From the NCBI RefSeq assembly GCF_900113245.1, contig NZ_FOOQ01000001.1:620001-684000 (forward strand): DNA of 64,000 nt, written 5' to 3'. The translations under genes were made by a program, and so were the position numbers. The notes under the pieces are model-generated. The model saw only the letters and a program-made list of their open reading frames with translations. It was not told the DNA's origin and did no database searches. The stretch's first letter is position 1. The number at the start of each line of letters is the position of its first letter. Shown here in pieces: positions 12,219 through 60,501 of the stretch. This stretch comes from Halopelagius inordinatus. Lineage in GTDB: Archaea; Halobacteriota; Halobacteria; Halobacteriales; Haloferacaceae.

Positions 12219-14216
12219 ATGCCAGTTGACTTCGACGCCGGTCTGGACCTCGTCGACGTCGCCAGACGGAGTCTGGCGGGCCGCCGAGGGTCCCTCGTTG
12301 ACGCCGCTACCGCGGGGTTCGGAGCGATGCTCTCGGACGGCTCCCCCGATGAGGGCTGTCGGTGCGAACCGCGTTTCGAGACGCCCGCCGGACGTGCCGG
12401 ACGCCGCACCGCGGAACTCGTCGTCGACGCCGACGACTGCCCCGGCGAGGGTGACCTCGCCTCGAATCCCGATTGCCGCGCCACCGTCGTCGGGGCGTTG
12501 GCCGACCGAGACGCCGACGTCGTTCGAACGGTCGCCGACGGCGTCAGTCGGACGTACGAGGACGCCGCCGCCGGACTGCTCCTCTCTGCCGGCCGGTTCG
12601 TCGAACGCGTCCGGTTTCACGACGAGACGCTCGCGGCCCGCGCCGAACGCGACCCGTTGGGCGCGGCGCGGGAGGCGGCCGGACGCGCCGGCGCAGTCGG
12701 TCGCATCGTCGCCGAGACCGGTCTGGAGGAGGGTGCGGCGAGAGCGGACGGCTACGGCGACGCGCTTCGACCCGCGGTCGGACCGTCCGTCGCCCGGTCG
12801 CGGGTCAGAGTTCGCCCGCCCGCCGACGCGTCGCTTCTCGACCGGCGCGAACTCCCGTCGGGCGCGACCGTTCGCCTGTACGATACGCCCGAGGGGACGC
12901 GCTACCACCTCACACCCGTCGCGCACTCGCTCGATTCGTCCGCGGCGGCGACGCTCGCGGCGGCGTACGACTGCCTCGCCCGCGGCCGCGTCGAGGGCGG
13001 GTCCCGCGCGCCGGGACGCGCCGTCCGCCACGTCGCGGACGATTCGACGCCCGTCGAGACGCTGACCGACGTGCTCCGGCAGTACACCCGCGGAAACGGC
13101 GTTCTCGATGACCTGTTTTCGGACCCGCGAGTCACGGACGTGGCGGCGTCGGCACCGGTCGAAGAGAACGCCGTCCGGGTCACCGTAGACGGCGAGCGAC
13201 TGCGGACGAACGTGCGACTGACGGCGGACGGCGCCGCCGCCCTCGCCTCGCGGTTTCGACGCGCCAGCGGGCGGGCGTTCTCGCGTGCGACGCCCGCACT
13301 CGACGCCGCGGTGACGCGACCGGACGGAACGAAAGTCCGCGTCGCCGGTGTCACTGCGCCCGCGAGCGACGGCATCGGGTTCTCGTTTCGCGCTCACGGC
13401 GACGACGCGTGGACGCTCCCCGGACTCGTCGCCGCGGGGACGCTCTCGGCGGACGCGGCGGCGCTTCTCTCCGTCGCGGCCGAACGGGGGTCTGCGGCCC
13501 TCGTGGCAGGGACCCGCGGGGCGGGGAAGACGACGCTTCTCGGCTCTCTCCTGTGGGAACTCCCCGCCGCGACGCGTCTCGTCACCGTCGAAGACACTCC
13601 GGAACTCCCCGTCGAAGCCCTCCGCGAGAACGGCCGTGACGTGCAACCGCTCACCGTCGAACTCGACGGCGGCGCGGGGTCGTTCTCGCCCGACGACGCT
13701 CTCAGGACCGCGCTCCGACTCGGCGACGGCGCTCTCGTCGTCGGCGAGGTCAGAGGCGAGGAGGCCGGGACGCTGTACGAGGCGATGCGCGTCGGCGCGC
13801 ACGGCAACGCCGTCCTCGGGACGATACACGGCGACTCCGCGGCGGCCGTCCGCGAGCGAGTCGTCTCGGACCTGGGCGTCCCCGAGTCGGCGTTCGGCGC
13901 GACGGACCTCGTGGTGACGTGCGCCCGCGACGGCCCGGACAGACGCGTCGAGCGAATCGAGGAGGTCCGTACCGGCGGCGAAGGCGTGCGATTCGAGACG
14001 CTGTACGCGCCGGGCGCAGACGGACTCGACGCGACGGGCCGCGTCTCCCGCGGCGACAGCGCACTCGTGGACTCTCTGGCGAAGTCCGAAGAGGCGTACG
14101 CGGACGTTCTCGACGCCCTCGACGGACGCGCGGCGCGCATCGAACGACTCGCCGAGACGGACCGCACCCGTCCCGAGGACGTCCGGACCGCGTACCGCGG
14201 ACGGGAGGTGAACTGA
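12219..14216 (+). CDS. Type II/IV secretion system ATPase (GspE/PilB/VirB11-like)
   Basis: Protein of 665 aa. The motor domain carries Walker A GTRGAGKT (431-438), an Asp box VTVEDTPELP, Walker B ALVVGEVRGEE and a His box GTIHGDSAAA (from 534). It should hydrolyse ATP in the cytoplasm to assemble a pilus-like filament or drive secretion. The N-terminal region has four cysteines (C47, C49, C74, C86) in a CxC...C...C pattern that could bind a metal. The middle region (PVETLTDVLRQYTRGNGVLDDLFSDPRVTDV) is the usual N2-type domain. The GspF-like membrane partner follows one base later. A TATA-like box 27 nt upstream supports the ATG. Which filament it powers is unknown; the exported proteins downstream are the obvious candidates. 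Confidence 0.93.
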   Translation: MPVDFDAGLDLVDVARRSLAGRRGSLVDAATAGFGAMLSDGSPDEGCRCEPRFETPAGRAGRRTAELVVDADDCPGEGDLASNPDCRATVVGALADRDADVVRTVADGVSRTYEDAAAGLLLSAGRFVERVRFHDETLAARAERDPLGAAREAAGRAGAVGRIVAETGLEEGAARADGYGDALRPAVGPSVARSRVRVRPPADASLLDRRELPSGATVRLYDTPEGTRYHLTPVAHSLDSSAAATLAAAYDCLARGRVEGGSRAPGRAVRHVADDSTPVETLTDVLRQYTRGNGVLDDLFSDPRVTDVAASAPVEENAVRVTVDGERLRTNVRLTADGAAALASRFRRASGRAFSRATPALDAAVTRPDGTKVRVAGVTAPASDGIGFSFRAHGDDAWTLPGLVAAGTLSADAAALLSVAAERGSAALVAGTRGAGKTTLLGSLLWELPAATRLVTVEDTPELPVEALRENGRDVQPLTVELDGGAGSFSPDDALRTALRLGDGALVVGEVRGEEAGTLYEAMRVGAHGNAVLGTIHGDSAAAVRERVVSDLGVPESAFGATDLVVTCARDGPDRRVERIEEVRTGGEGVRFETLYAPGADGLDATGRVSRGDSALVDSLAKSEEAYADVLDALDGRAARIERLAETDRTRPEDVRTAYRGREVN

Positions 14217-17721: not shown

Positions 17722-20700
17722 TGCGCCTCGCTGACGACGACCGGGCGCGCGTCCCGTTCGCCCTCGTAGGCGTCCTCCTCCTCGTCACCAGTTCGACGTA
17801 CGCGGCGTCGATAGCGACGAGCGGTCCCGGTGCCGCGGACCGGTCCGTCGACGAAGCGATGGACCGCGTCGACGCGGAGACGACCACCGCGCTCCGGACG
17901 GCGACGCGCGACGCCGCACTCGCCGCCGCACGGAACCCGGTGACCGACAACTCCTCGACCGCCGTCGGGAAGGCGCTGGGCGAAAACCGGACGTTCCGCC
18001 GGTATCTACGCCTCCGAATCTCGCTGGCCGCGGCGGAGTCGCTTCGCGCGGTCGAACACGCGCGCGGCGACGTGACCGCGAACGCGACGCTTCCGACGCC
18101 GACAGGCGTGGCTTGTCGAGCCGCCGGACGCTGTCCGGCGACCCCGACGAACGAGTCGTCTCTCGGAGAGGCGATACGACGCGTCTCTGTCGCCGAGGCG
18201 GCGAACGGAACCGCGCTCTCTGTCACCGTCAGAGACGTCTCGCTCACCGCCCGGCGCGACGGGCGAGTCGTCGCCGAGGAGTCGGTCACGCGCACGGTGA
18301 CGGTGTCCGTCCCCGTTCTCGGCCTTCACGACCGAACCGCCGACTACCAGCGCCGACTCGACGCGAATCCCCTCGAAGCGCCGGGACTCTCCCGACGGGC
18401 GACGGCGGGACTCCTCGGCGTCGCGCAGGCCCGAGGGGCCGCGCAGTACGCCGGAGCGCCGATTCAGAACGTCCTCGCGAACCGCCACGTCGAACTCTCG
18501 ACGAACGCCGGTCTCCTGACCGCCCAACGGGCCGCCTTCGGGCGGACGGACCCCGACGCCCGCCGCGGCGTCCGCCGCGCGACCGCTCGAACCGGACTCA
18601 TGGACGTGCTGAAACCCGTCGCCGGCGGCGACGCGGCGACGGTCGTCGCCGACGAAGCGGCCGACGCGGCGGTCCCGCCCGCGTCCGAGAACTCCACGAT
18701 ACCGACCGCCGCGCCGCGGTCCGCAGACGAGACGCTTCGGGTGGACGTGGGGTCGACGGCCGACGAAGCGTTCGTCGCGTTCCTCCGCGGCGAGGGCGAA
18801 CGCCCCGGGTTCGACGAGGTTCGTCGCCACGGCTACCGGGCGCGGGTAGACGTTCGGAACGACGTGACGACCGAACGGGACGGCTCCCGACCCGCGCCGG
18901 ACGCCCCCGGACGGGTCTGGTCGCTGGCCTCGCAGGACACCTCCCGCGAGACGCGCGTGGAGTCGGTGGACGGAGGGACGGTATCGCCGCGAACCGGCCC
19001 GGGCGAACGAGCCTTCGACACTGCCGTTCGTCGCGTCGTCGTCGAACACCGCGTCGAGCGGACGTGGAGACATCCGAACCGGTCGTCGCGCGGCACCGAG
19101 GCGACGTGGACCGACAGTTACCGGGTCGAGATGACCGTCGTCGGCTCGCTCACCTCGGTTCCCGGCCCGGACCGACGGGTCGCTCCGCTCTTCGAACGCG
19201 GCGGCGCGGTGGGCGGGCCGAACCTGCGAGCCATCCCCGATACCGCCGCCGACGCTCTCGCGAACCGCGGCGGCGCGGACGCCGTCGCCCGCCGTGCGGT
19301 CGGCGACGACGCATCGGCGGCGACGACTGTCGACGGCCGACGGCCGGAACGACTTCGCGCGTGGGCGTACGACGACGTCGCCTCCCTCCGCGAACGGGTT
19401 CGGAACGTCGCCGTCGAACCGCCCGCCCGCGCCGTCGCGACCGGACGCGTCAACCCGGCGGCCCGACTGGCGACCGCCGTCAGAGAGCGTCGCGCGTCGC
19501 TCGTCGACGCCCCCGATACCTACGACGGGGCGGCCGACCGCGTCCGCGTCGCCGCGCGTGCGGCGTATCTGAACCGGCTCCTCGCGGCCCTCGACGACCG
19601 AGCGAACCGGACCGCGACCAGAAACGACGGCATCGAGGCGGCCCTCGACGCTCGCGGCGTCGACGCCGACCGGGCGAACCGCATCGCGGCCAACCGCACG
19701 ATACGGACGCCGGACCGCAGAAAACAGGGGAGTGCGGGGTCACCAGCCGGACCGACGACGTTCGTCCCCGACGGCGACCCGGCGTACCTCACGCTCGACC
19801 CCGTCGCGGGTGACCGCGTGGACGGCGTCGGAGACGAGACGCGCTACTACCCCCTCGCGGCGCGGAACAGCAACCTGTTTTCGCTCCCGTACGGCGACGC
19901 CTCGGACGTCGTCGCCGACGCCCTGTTGGGCTCCGGCGAGTCGGTGTCGCTCCGAACCGCGGGACGCGCAGTCGTCGCCGCGAACCGGACGCTCGCAGTC
20001 GAGAGCGACGAAACGCTCGAACGTCGCCGCGACGCGCTCCAACGGAAGACCGAAGACTCGTTCCGCGCGGTCCAGTCTCGGGCCGTCGAGACGCTGGGCG
20101 CGGAGACCGACCTCCCGGAAGACGACCGGCGACTGGCGGTGACCGCCGCCTCAGAGAGGTGGGACGGAACGGGGCGCCGCGCCGTAGCCGCCGCAAACGG
20201 GTCGTTCGCGGCGGCCGTCGCCGCCGAAGCCGAACCGGCCGACCCGACGGACCGAGACCGAATCGAGACCGCGCTTCGCGTCGATATAGCCGCCGCGGCG
20301 ACGGATGCGGACGTTCGCGTACCGGAGCGCGCGACCAACCGAACCGTCTCGCGGACGCGCCGACTCGGGACCGAACTCCTGAAAGACGCCGCGGAACGCG
20401 GGACCGAACGCGCCGTCGAGCGCACCGCACAGAAGTACGCGAACACGTCGCTCGGCGGCACCCCCGCGGGACTCCCCCTCTCGCCGACGATGAGTCCGTG
20501 GGTGGCGACGACCAACCTCTGGGTCGTCGAGACGCGCGGCGAGTACGCGCGCTTTACCGTCTCCGCGGACCGCGGCGGCGCGACGCCGGTCACCTACGTC
20601 CGGGACGGACGCGCCGTTTCGCTCGACGTGGACGGCGACGGAGTGAGAGAGACGCTCGGGCGCAGCGAGCGAATCGGGTTCGACGTCCGAACCGTCGTCC

Positions 20701-31134: not shown

Positions 31135-31767
31135 TCAGAACTCGTCGGACTCCGACGCCACGGCGGAGACGGGACGCGGCGGGTCGGGGCTCTCCGGCGG
31201 GGGCCGAAGTTCGAGGCGGTACCACCCGACGTCGCGCCACGCGCCGAGTTTGTAGCCCGCCGCCGGGAAGTCCGCGAGGTGGTCGAAGCCGTACGCCTCG
31301 TGGAACGCCTCGCTCTCGGGGTTCGGCAGCCCCAGAACCGCGTAGGCGGAGACGTATCCCTGTCTCCGCAGGGTGTCGAACAGTCTGTCGTACAGTCGTC
31401 GCCCGACGCCGCCGCGGTGGTGCGTCGGGTCGACGTAAATCGACGTCTCGACGCTCCACTGGTAGGCGGGCCGGTCGCGGACCGGCGTCGCGTAGGCGTA
31501 TCCGAGAATCGACCCGCCGCCCTCGGCGTCGGTTTCGGACGCGGTCCGGTCGCCCGCCGACGGTTCTTCGGCGACGAACCACGGGTACGCGTCGCCCTCG
31601 CGCGTCGTCCGAATCTTCTCGCGCAGGTCCGATACCGACGGCGGTTCGAGCGTGAACGTCGCGGGCGTCTCGCGGACGAACGGCGCGTAGATGTCCCGAA
31701 CGGCGGCGGCGTCCTCGGGCCGGGCGAGGCGGAGGCGCGGGGCGTCGGAGACCGACTCGTCGCTCAT
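31135..31767 (-). CDS. GNAT acetyltransferase, phosphinothricin N-acetyltransferase-like
   Basis: Protein of 210 aa from the ATG at 31767. It opens with RLRLARPEDAAAVRDIYAPFV and carries the acetyl-CoA site VDPTHHRGGVGRRLYDRLF (motif A, R/Q-x-x-G-x-G/A pattern). AVLGLPNPESEAFHEAYGF follows as motif B, which places it with the phosphinothricin/methionine sulfoximine acetyltransferase subgroup. The acceptor is unknown. The shorter start is preferred over an upstream ATG at 31815, because a TATA-like ggtttag on the minus strand (centred near 31794) lies 27 nt upstream. Confidence 0.88.
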   Translation of the reverse strand: MSDESVSDAPRLRLARPEDAAAVRDIYAPFVRETPATFTLEPPSVSDLREKIRTTREGDAYPWFVAEEPSAGDRTASETDAEGGGSILGYAYATPVRDRPAYQWSVETSIYVDPTHHRGGVGRRLYDRLFDTLRRQGYVSAYAVLGLPNPESEAFHEAYGFDHLADFPAAGYKLGAWRDVGWYRLELRPPPESPDPPRPVSAVASESDEF

Positions 31768-31840
31768 ACCCGACGGTGCGGCGGTGCGGCCTAAACCTCT
31801 CTCGGTTCCGGTCACGCGGTGCCGCCCGAGGTAGTCACGG

Positions 31841-31847
31841 TTTTACG
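31841..31847 (+). promoter_or_regulatory. TATA-like element for radical SAM gene
   Basis: ttttacg is centred about 27 nt before the ATG at 31870 (leaderless). Confidence 0.45.
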
Positions 31848-31869
31848 CGTTCGCACCCTCCGTTCGGAC

Positions 31870-33597
31870 ATGACAGACCCGGCCGACATCTCCGTGACAC
31901 TCGTCGACGGGTACGTGGACGAACCGGCGCATTTCGGCGTCCCGCCCTACATCTCGACGTATCCGCGCTTCACCGCGGGGGCCCTCGTGGACGCCGGCGT
32001 ACCCGAGGAGAACGTCACCTACCACACCATAGACGAACTCCGCGAGGAACGCTCGAAGTGGGCGGACGTGGCCGACGCGGACCTGTTCGTCTACATCGGC
32101 GGCATGACCGTCCCCGGAAAGTACGTCGGGGGGACGCCCGCCGAACCCGACGAAGTCCGGAAACTCGCGTGGGCCGCCGACGGGACGACGCTGATGGGCG
32201 GTCCCATCCGGTTCGGCGTCGGCGAGGAGAACGCCGGCGCACAGGAGATGGAACGGCAGGACCTCGACTACGACTTCCTGGCGATGGCCGACGTGGAGGC
32301 GGCGGCGTACGACTTGGTCGATAGTGGACTCGAAGGCTTCGACAACCGCTACCGCGACAACGAGGAACTCGACCGCTGGGCCGCGAAAGGCGCGTTCGTC
32401 GTCGAACAGCATCCGAACCACCCCGACTACCTCATCTGCGAGATGGAGACGTCCCGCGGGTGCGCCTACCGGTGTTCGTTCTGTACCGAACCGATGTACG
32501 GCAACCCCGCGTTCCGCTCTGCGGACTCGGTCGTCAGGGAGGTCGGAAACCTCTCGGATAGGGGAGCGAAACATTTCCGACTCGGCCGACAGGCGGACAT
32601 CCTCGCGTTCGGCGGCGACGGCGAAGCGCCGAACCCCGACGCCCTCCGTCGCCTCTACGGCGGCATCCGGGAGGTGGCCCCGAATCTGGAGACGCTCCAC
32701 CTCGACAACATGAACCCCATCACGGTCGTGAAGTGGCCCGAGGAGTCCCGCGAGTGCATCCGAATCATCGCCGAGCACAACACGCCGGGCGACACCGCGG
32801 CGTTCGGCCTCGAATCCGCGGACCCCGTCGTTCAGGAGGCGAACACGCTCAACGTCACCGCAGACCAGTGTTTCGAGGCGGTGAAGATAGTCAACGAGGA
32901 GGCGGGATGGCGGCCCGGCGAGTCGCCCGCCGACGCGCCGACGCACGGCCCCGACGCGACGAACCGCCTGCCGAAACTCCTGCCCGGTATCAACCTGCTT
33001 CACGGACTGAAGGCCGAACGCGAGGAGACGTTCGAACACAACAAGCGCTTTCTCCACCGCGTCTACGACGCGGGTCTGATGGTCCGCCGCATCAACATCC
33101 GGCAGGTGATGGCGTTCGAGGGCACCGAGATGGCGGAGTCGGGCGCGGACATCGCGAAGGGCCACAAGAAACTGTTCCAGACGTACAAAAAGGAGGTTCG
33201 CGAGGAGATAGACCGCCCGATGCTCGAACGTCTCGCCCCGGCGGGGACGGTGCTTCCGGACGTCCACTTGGAGTACCACCAAGACGGCAAGACGTTCGGC
33301 CGACAACTCGGCACCTACCCCCTCTTGGTCGGCATCCCGGGCGAACGCGAACTCGGCCGGACCATCGACGTCTCCGTCGTGGACCACGGGTACCGCTCCG
33401 TCACCGGCGTGCCGCACCCTCTCGACCCCAACGAGGCGTCGATGGACGAACTGACGGCCATCCCCGGCATCGGCAAGCGAACCGCGGGGGACATAGTCAT
33501 CGACCGACCGTACGACTCCGCGGAGGACGTGGCCGCGACGGACGTGGATTTCGGCCCCTACACGAGAGAGTACCCGACGGAACGGCGCGCGGACTGA
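31870..33597 (+). CDS. Radical SAM protein with B12-like N-terminal domain and C-terminal HhH
   Basis: Protein of 575 aa. The N-terminal 190 residues (VTLVDGYVDEPAHFGVPPYISTYPRFTAGAL, then LFVYIGGMTVPGKYVGG) resemble a cobalamin-binding-like Rossmann module, though no DxHxxG is seen. The radical SAM core starts at CAYRCSFC (CxxxCxxC), which ligates the 4Fe-4S cluster that cleaves SAM. The C-terminus has ELTAIPGIGKRTAGDIV, a helix-hairpin-helix for nucleic acid binding. This suggests an RNA- or DNA-modifying enzyme, in line with TRAM-containing relatives, but the reaction is unknown. It is convergent with a TRAM-domain gene across a palindromic spacer. Confidence 0.9.
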   Translation: MTDPADISVTLVDGYVDEPAHFGVPPYISTYPRFTAGALVDAGVPEENVTYHTIDELREERSKWADVADADLFVYIGGMTVPGKYVGGTPAEPDEVRKLAWAADGTTLMGGPIRFGVGEENAGAQEMERQDLDYDFLAMADVEAAAYDLVDSGLEGFDNRYRDNEELDRWAAKGAFVVEQHPNHPDYLICEMETSRGCAYRCSFCTEPMYGNPAFRSADSVVREVGNLSDRGAKHFRLGRQADILAFGGDGEAPNPDALRRLYGGIREVAPNLETLHLDNMNPITVVKWPEESRECIRIIAEHNTPGDTAAFGLESADPVVQEANTLNVTADQCFEAVKIVNEEAGWRPGESPADAPTHGPDATNRLPKLLPGINLLHGLKAEREETFEHNKRFLHRVYDAGLMVRRINIRQVMAFEGTEMAESGADIAKGHKKLFQTYKKEVREEIDRPMLERLAPAGTVLPDVHLEYHQDGKTFGRQLGTYPLLVGIPGERELGRTIDVSVVDHGYRSVTGVPHPLDPNEASMDELTAIPGIGKRTAGDIVIDRPYDSAEDVAATDVDFGPYTREYPTERRAD

Positions 33598-33620
33598 GAG
33601 AGAAGGGACAAGAGGCTCTA

Positions 33621-33776
33621 CCGCGCCGAGCGAACGAAGTGAGCGAGGCGCGGCCCTTTTTGTCGCCAGAACGCTTTGCGTTCTGGCTGAACAGCCAGAA
33701 ATCTCCGATTTCTGGCGATGGTCGAGCTTTTTGCGAGGAGTGGTCGCGCTGTGCGCGACCCGACGACGCAAAAAGG
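33621..33776. repeat. Composite inverted repeat between convergent genes, probable bidirectional terminator
   Basis: The spacer contains five perfect inverted repeats. The outer arms cctttttg (33655-33662) and caaaaagg (33769-33776) flank three hairpins with 3-nt loops: 33665-33687 (10-bp stem gccagaacgc, loop ttt), 33694-33716 (10-bp stem gccagaaatc, loop tcc) and 33742-33760 (8-bp stem ggtcgcgc, loop tgt). A further arm pair, ccgcgcc/ggcgcgg, sits at 33621-33653. T5 tracts appear for both strands. The layout matches the element at 60235-60501. Confidence 0.75.
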
Positions 33777-33779
33777 TCG

Positions 33780-34193
33780 TTAGAAGTCTTCTTCGATGAC
33801 TTCGCCGACTGCGAAGTTGGATTTGACTTCCGTGACCTCTATCTTGACTCGGTCGCCGACCTGAGCGCCGGGGACGATGATGACGTACCCGCGTTCGACG
33901 CGAGCGATGCCGTCGCCCTGCTTCCCGATGTCCTCTATCTCGACGTACCGGAGTTCGCCGACTTCGACCGGCGGTTGCGGTTCTGCCGACGTACCGCTCG
34001 GTTCCGTCGTCTCTTCGTCCTCCGTTGCTTCGCGAGAGATGAGAGCGACACGGTACGTCTCGCCGGGTTCGACTATCCCGGCGTCGATTTCGCGCTTCGG
34101 AACCTCGACGACGTACCGGTCGTCCTCCGCGCGGACGTCAGTGTTGAACAGACACAGGAGTTTATCTGAGATTTCCACCGTATAGACCTCCAT
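33780..34193 (-). CDS. TRAM domain-containing RNA-binding protein
   Basis: Protein of 137 aa. The C-terminal TRAM domain (about 78-135) reads VEIEDIGKQGDGIARVERGYVIIVPGAQVGDRVKIEVTEV. TRAM is a beta-barrel RNA-binding fold found in tRNA-modifying enzymes; stand-alone archaeal TRAM proteins have been proposed to act as RNA chaperones. The N-terminal domain (MEVYTVEISDKLLCLFNTDV...YVVEVPKREIDAGIVEPGETYRVAL) is a short beta segment. The linker is Glu/Thr-rich. It is convergent with the radical SAM gene. Confidence 0.9.
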   Translation of the reverse strand: MEVYTVEISDKLLCLFNTDVRAEDDRYVVEVPKREIDAGIVEPGETYRVALISREATEDEETTEPSGTSAEPQPPVEVGELRYVEIEDIGKQGDGIARVERGYVIIVPGAQVGDRVKIEVTEVKSNFAVGEVIEEDF

Positions 34194-60235: not shown

Positions 60236-60501
60236 CCCACCTTTTTCGCTGCGAGCCGACTTCGCCGGCTCTCGGCAAAAGCTGGACCAAACGCACTCCT
60301 TCCTCACTTTGGGCGGCTCCGCCGCCCTCCGTTCAGTCGTCGGCCCGCTCGTTCGCTTCGGTCGCTCGCGGTACGTCGGCGTAGAGCATCCGCGAGCGAA
60401 GCGAGCGGTTCACCGACGGAGCCGCCGAAGGCGGCGAAGTCGGCCTTTTTCCCTCCAGGTTTTTGGAGAGGGTGCGTAGCACCCTCTGCAAAAAGGTGGG
60501 T
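60235..60501. repeat. Nested palindromic spacer between convergent genes, probable bidirectional terminator
   Basis: The outer arms acccaccttttt (60235-60246) and aaaaaggtgggt (60490-60501) are perfect complements. Inside are gccgacttcgcc (60255-60266) with ggcgaagtcggc (60433-60444), a hairpin gggcggc-tcc-gccgccc (60311-60327), a pair tcgctcgcgg/ccgcgagcga (60362-60399), a hairpin gccgcc-gaa-ggcggc (60421-60435, loop gaa) and a hairpin agagggtgc-gta-gcaccctct (60467-60487). The 3-nt-loop hairpins and poly-T/poly-A arms match the element at 33621-33776. Confidence 0.8.

Follow-up and report, generated by a model that had tools for sequence, protein, structure and literature searches.

A double-hairpin element within a putative bidirectional terminator spacer of Halopelagius inordinatus and its in-frame relatives in haloarchaeal genes

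The spacer between two convergent genes of Halopelagius inordinatus is probably a two-way T-tract terminator cassette that received a small, palindromic, mobile-like double-hairpin element (DHE). It was found in a 64,000-nucleotide stretch, hereafter the window, of a genome of 3.53 Mb in 14 contigs (G000). The DHE is an insertion of 58 nt at positions 33662-33719, strand-neutral and with ends ambiguous by one base. Its layout is GTC, a 10-bp hairpin with a 3-nt loop, TGAACA, a second 10-bp hairpin with a 3-nt loop, and GAT. Related copies are dispersed, orthologous sites are found filled and empty, copies are inserted in frame within protein-coding genes, and their stems covary.

The spacer opens at the 3' end of a radical-SAM gene on the plus strand (31819-33597; PF04055, E 3.6e-9), whose C-terminal helix-hairpin-helix motif matches just below the curated cut-off. 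The gene on its other side is an open reading frame for a TRAM-domain protein on the minus strand (33780-34193; PF01938, E 5.9e-16), and the spacer lies between the 3' ends of the two. The radical-SAM protein is nearest to those of Halogeometricum limi (89%) and H. pallidum (90% identity) among the loci returned. Rfam at gathering thresholds gave no family within the window.

Two 10-bp hairpins starting with GCCAGAA and closed by 3-nt loops, a third hairpin of 8 bp with a 3-nt loop, and a pair of bracketing tracts had been described in the first-pass annotation, and all of them are present. Hairpin 1 of the DHE is GCCAGAACGC-ttt-GCGTTCTGGC (33665-33687) and hairpin 2 is GCCAGAAATC-tcc-GATTTCTGGC (33694-33716). 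The third hairpin, GGTCGCGC-tgt-GCGCGACC (33742-33760), belongs to the cassette; all three are strand-neutral. The brackets are CCTTTTTG at 33655-33662 and CAAAAAGG at 33769-33776. The former holds the first plus-strand T5 tract, the putative terminator of the radical-SAM gene. On the minus strand, the stop codon of the TRAM gene is followed after 5 nt by a T5 tract (CTTTTT; 33770-33774), the putative terminator of that gene. Two features had been overlooked. A fourth, GC-rich stem, CCGCGCC (33621-33627) with GGCGCGG (33647-33653), is terminator-like in sequence and fold on the plus strand, stands directly upstream of the first T5 tract, and is kept in the spacers of H. limi, H. pallidum and genome G001. 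A second plus-strand T5 tract (GAGCTTTTTGC; 33728-33732) is kept in H. limi and H. pallidum and reads GATTTTTGC in G001.

The hairpins, loops and tract brackets of the spacer exceed chance. The RNA fold of 33600-33800 has an energy of -101.8 kcal/mol, whereas 200 dinucleotide shuffles give -71.4 +/- 4.6 (z -6.7), and none of the 200 folds as low. When up to two mismatches are allowed, the window holds two copies of the pattern GCCAGAA-N9-TTCTGGC, where 0.06 would be expected. GCCAGAA-N5..15-TTCTGGC is present at seven places in the genome, and its backward reading at none. An overall surplus of 3-nt-loop hairpins was discarded as an explanation: in a 464-kb sample of G000, consisting of the window and 20 further stretches, 51 such hairpins with stems of at least 8 bp were observed against 30 expected, a modest excess, and no more than 7 of them lie within 60 nt of an A5 or T5 tract.

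Read from the TRAM stop codon, the cassette consists of a few nucleotides, CTTTTT, about 9 nt, the 8-bp hairpin with its 3-nt loop, about 9 nt, and AAAAAG. The same plan recurs behind other genes of G000 and G001, often as stop-CCCACCTTTTT, in 36 rows over the loci examined, a count that takes the two strands and nested starts separately. Both arms of the cassette hairpin vary among the copies, as in GGTCGCGC/GCGCGACC, GGTGCGCC/GGCGCACC and GGTTCGCTC/GAGCGAACC, and its position is constant. In the accessible sections of a study of Haloferax volcanii (PMC7237163), a T stretch is a tested intergenic terminator, and hairpins lie upstream of 503 termination sites, one tested hairpin giving 59% termination. 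By analogy, it is likely that the spacer acts as a two-way T-tract terminator. Like the T-stretch terminators of those sections, it places a T tract just past the stop codon, at the gene 3' end; unlike them, the cassette is two-sided, with a hairpin of variable stem between the T- and A-tracts. A second two-way cassette, with a 9-bp hairpin and a 3-nt loop and without a double-hairpin insert, is located at 60445-60500 of the window.

Across four orthologous spacers, the DHE site is filled in the window and in H. pallidum, and empty in H. limi and G001. At the empty sites nothing stands between the flanks (CTCTTTTTGGTCGAGC in H. limi, CTTTTTGGTCCAGA in G001); these were taken directly from the sequences because MAFFT misplaced several parts of the spacer. 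At another position of its spacer, H. limi carries a related 57-nt unit of its own, with 44 of 51 consensus letters, where the best background score is 34 in the 464-kb sample and 30 and 29 in reversed and complemented controls. H. pallidum carries two further 10-bp hairpins behind the DHE, which make up a second double-hairpin unit judged on structure alone (30 of 51 consensus letters, near background). The hairpin array was present in none of the spacer loci read, seven from Halobellus and five of ten from Haloferax (L023 read in part). The terminator of a NifU-domain gene shows another such difference, being empty in G000 and filled in G001. From these comparisons the double-hairpin unit appears to come and go independently of the terminator cassette. 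A terminator-only reading of the two GCCAGAA hairpins was rejected, given the empty sites. The first-pass annotation had treated the spacer as a single unit with far more structure than a simple terminator needs. The surplus is borne out, as a T-tract cassette plus a two-hairpin insert, and the hairpins and tracts are real; the spacer is not one unit, since the T-tracts and the third hairpin recur behind other genes and the GCCAGAA hairpins are absent at the site in two of the three other orthologous spacers. Similar elements, for which the annotation had proposed a search, were found both in the genome and in relatives.

In the 464-kb sample, pairs of 3-nt-loop hairpins whose loops start 22 nt apart number 13, against 1.0 expected under a fourth-order Markov model, and the other loop distances from 14 to 59 give 0 to 4 pairs each. 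These pairs define a 45-nt unit, whose whole-genome pattern has 34 matches on both strands and none backwards. Twenty-five units of this class align without gaps. Their two stems are paired in 94.5% of cells, compared with 79.1% after shuffling and 24-39% in slid controls, and all 16 stem pairs show changes on both sides. A covariance model gave 101 matches in G000 at E <= 0.01, corresponding to 56 places after strand merging with the training copies included, and 38 places at 1e-6. The family architecture comprises two near-perfect stems with 3-nt loops in 45 or 57/58 nt, the stems being 8 bp in the 45-nt units and about 9-10 bp in the long ones, and inverted ends GTCGCC/GGCGAC.

The DHE of the window belongs to the long class. 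Its loop distance of 29 is not enriched in the 464-kb sample (one pair, the window's own, against 0.5 expected); the long class thus rests on whole-genome patterns, namely the seven places against none described above and the first hairpin of the window unit, which has 20 matches per strand against 5 for the control at up to two mismatches. Thirteen long-class copies were examined, and 12 long-class units align with few gaps. Five 58-nt copies (the window, L005, L009, L095 and L097) stand in terminator spacers, as do the 57-nt copies L228 and L230. The 57-nt copies L003, L007, L229 and L233 lie within reading frames, open and in phase 0; the context of L232, also 57 nt, is not assignable to spacer or frame, and L231, of 55 nt, has stops in frame and breaks the frame. 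The first-hairpin stem of the window unit is identical to one within a shikimate kinase gene. At otherwise equal stems, the window has the loop tcc, and L005 and L009 have its reverse complement gga. The alignments suggest that the long unit is the 45-nt unit with about three nucleotides added per arm, and the 51-nt model matches may be read likewise.

Copies inside protein-coding genes are inserted predominantly in one phase. Phase 0 was found at 61 of the 65 inspected 45-nt places with a callable coding frame; assuming that the places are independent, a binomial calculation with a chance of one third gives a probability of about 1e-24. By set, the 20 new places examined in G000 gave phase 0 in 18 of 19 decidable cases, the 29 from other genomes in 27 of 27, and the 23 training places in 16 of 19, after one, two and four ambiguous places, respectively, had been dropped; phase 2 was called at three training places and one new place. 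As a heuristic, the element was masked and the frame was called from GC by codon position in its flanks. The counts include L271, L272, L274, L297 and L151, where the frame locator took a poor register (5-6 mismatches), and L168, which is phase 2 in the main count and phase 0 in a separate look. One phase-0 place, L270, has an internal stop. The in-frame copies add about 15 residues with the approximate peptide DVAERSSAxRQTQSGD. Selection acting once a copy has inserted, or a choice of insertion site, may underlie the phase bias.

Orthologues without the inserted residues were found for five proteins from two genera. In an aminotransferase-IV protein, 15 residues are missing from three of three relatives. 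The insert of an alpha-amylase-family enzyme is missing in all four loci compared (two in G001, one G000 paralogue and one in G002), in a GH13 alignment that is padded by a neighbouring paralogue and in which the empty G002 locus (L177) lacks two further residues. A shikimate kinase (TIGR01920, a fragment below the whole-protein cut-off) has 34 residues that are missing from three of three relatives; this insert is a tandem of a 45-nt and a 57-nt unit, and the orthologues show a 102-nt gap. In another genus, a phosphoesterase carries 15 residues in one of five genomes and a membrane protein with no Pfam match carries its insert in two of four, with gap edges varying by one or two residues in both comparisons. 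No solved structure matched the phosphoesterase fragment. In MerA of Halorubrum trapanicum (WP_096396473.1), the insert corresponds to a 15-residue gap against the solved mercuric reductase 5x1y. GAC stands on both sides of the insert in the aminotransferase, the phosphoesterase and one membrane-protein copy, and this flanking pair is absent at the shikimate kinase and the window terminator, so that target duplication is inconsistent. MITEs are recognized by terminal inverted repeats shared with a transposon and by a constant target duplication. A histidine-kinase site (L155) was not counted among the empty-site cases, since inserts are present at this position in its relatives as well. At this NxVEHG site, variable inserts with repeated VEHG are seen in several genera (L175, L188, L178, L183 and L173), and it is possibly a hot spot of related units.

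Candidate members of the family are widespread in haloarchaea. In a class-wide scan with stricter filters and 26 candidates scored per genome, the covariance model had a match at E <= 1e-4, the model E-values being rough, in 193 of the 242 haloarchaeal genomes, and 61 of the 74 genera were represented. A narrower DNA pattern matched in 30 of 145 genomes, and the backwards control gave none among the genomes listed; G000 has 34 and other genomes one to four each, and some of the matches with three mismatches may be chance. Among 72,556 plasmid records, one 45-nt unit as query gave two matches, both haloarchaeal, and the window unit gave six half-length matches (E 0.1-0.3), all haloarchaeal. Four of these six were read, and hairpin pairs were found in Haloferax mediterranei pHME132 and in Haladaptatus. 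The pHME132 record (L330) has five matching places; at the one inspected (about 1001-1130), a tandem of two long units, with the stems CCAGAACGC and CCAGAAATC as in the window, lies at the 5' end of what is annotated as an IS6-family transposase. One exact pattern had no match in viral contigs, which is weak evidence because the pattern is narrow.

It is unlikely that the spacer in its entirety forms a single elaborate two-way terminator or 3'-end protector, in which the GCCAGAA hairpins would stop the polymerase or block decay. The T5 tracts on both strands, the strong fold and the copies of the long unit in several terminator cassettes are consistent with such a device, as are the Haloferax volcanii hairpins in the sections cited above (503 sites, 59% termination by one; PMC7237163). 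However, the cassette is complete without the GCCAGAA hairpins at that site in H. limi and G001, and a terminator role is implausible for the relatives of the unit because they lie in frame inside genes.

Two further explanations dispense with a mobile element. Template switching at quasi-palindromes could make perfect hairpins in place, the likeness of the units arising only from composition and codon usage; this would account for stems that are perfect despite changes on both sides and for the reverse-complement loops tcc (window) and gga (L005 and L009) at equal stems. We consider it improbable to a high degree, as stem and spacer letters are common to unrelated loci and genera. The shared letters, the fixed 22-nt loop distance and the exact 45- and 102-nt gaps in orthologues need template copying. 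Still less credible is selection at the protein level, with coding copies evolved as hydrophilic linkers and the hairpins as a by-product. It would explain the phase and peptide common to the coding copies, whereas compensatory changes in all 16 stem pairs would be unexpected, and long-class units also stand in spacers.

An inserted, mobile-like DHE is thus the preferred explanation; active transposition and arm-to-arm correction would be parts of it. The units would be copied to new places by trans-acting machinery or by hairpin-driven template switching. Genic copies in one phase would add a short hydrophilic peptide that is tolerated, and correction between the arms would keep the stems paired while their sequence drifts. 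The reverse-complement loops would fit flipping or correction between arms. The window unit would be carried by the terminator as a passenger and may have a secondary influence on the 3' end of the RNA. The comparisons revealed neither a transposition event nor a donor. A search of G000 gave no Y1_Tnp (PF01797) transposase; as a control, PF01797 was recovered from 5 of 14 known genomes, including Haloferax volcanii. RAYT/IS200-type mobilisation from within G000 was therefore rejected. We lean towards a broader view, that haloarchaea as a class carry undescribed, transposase-free mobile palindromes that remodel proteins. Their sizes of 45, 51 and 57 nt would keep the frame, their symmetry would give the same tolerated phase in either orientation, their stems would be arm-corrected, and the spacer copies would be the same element freed from the frame.

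REPIN/RAYT systems consist of short palindrome pairs dispersed in a genome, with a GTAG tag and a Y1 tyrosine transposase. The DHE units are likewise dispersed short palindrome pairs, but the aligned units have no GTAG tag and G000 has no Y1_Tnp gene; for these two reasons the family is not a REPIN/RAYT system. The double-hairpin elements of organelle genomes are also paired hairpins dispersed as units. In-frame palindromic insertions are best known from Rickettsia. The Rickettsia palindromic elements (RPEs) are described, in the available part of PMC10969869, as in-frame palindromes of about 150 bp in unrelated genes with a recurrent peptide. Units of the DHE family share the in-frame position in unrelated genes and the recurrent peptide; compared with this description, they differ in being archaeal, 45 or 57/58 nt long and composed of two 3-nt-loop hairpins. 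The CGTC-REPs, as far as the consulted part of PMC3733652 describes them, are palindromes without a dedicated transposase, commonly dimeric, with intragenic copies and others near the 3' ends of convergent ORFs; they have loops of 4-5 nt, stems of 8-9 bp and CGTC at one end. The DHE family resembles this description in its paired palindromes, in copies inside ORFs and near convergent gene 3' ends, and in the lack of Y1_Tnp (PF01797) in the genome, and differs in loops of 3 nt. CGTC is often found at the unit end, where the preceding base is C, and TGTC is found at the window copy. Words beginning with 'halo' are absent from the text of the CGTC-REP paper. The family appears by analogy to work like RPEs or CGTC-REPs with a different loop size and architecture, and it is filed as neither, since its loops do not have the CGTC-REP size and its units are much shorter than RPEs.

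The haloarchaeon Haloquadratum carries transposase-free repeats, namely MITEs, PATEs and SMRs. According to the accessible part of PMC3119063, SMRs have inverted ends without target duplication and target other mobile elements, with lengths of about 110 bp for SMR-A and of 80 bp for the shortest SMR-B, and PATEs relate to IS605 ends. The DHE family is similarly haloarchaeal, transposase-free by the PF01797 search and equipped with inverted ends, and its units are shorter than SMRs as described there. PMC3990103, in the part available, concerns CRISPR and inteins. The open-access literature, with most subscription papers outside the scope of the search, yielded no haloarchaeal description of such elements. 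A second case of in-frame palindromes, in a group with genetic tools, would open dispersal without an own transposase to testing, along with the predominance of a single reading phase and the tolerance of proteins for such inserts. For annotators, some 15-residue inserts of haloarchaeal proteins and some terminator hairpins may be derived from mobile elements.

Further units were observed in the window. A covariance-model match at 31532-31575 is weak (E 1.3e-4) and may be chance. The 45-nt unit at 18098-18142 lies in a long open frame and was called phase 2, against the phase rule. Another 45-nt unit, at 12258-12302, is in phase 0 inside a 543-codon open frame and was recovered by both the genome pattern and the covariance model. 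Elsewhere in the genome, at L270 (G000 C2:448244-448333), a 57-nt unit and two 45-nt model matches form an uninterrupted chain of three units.
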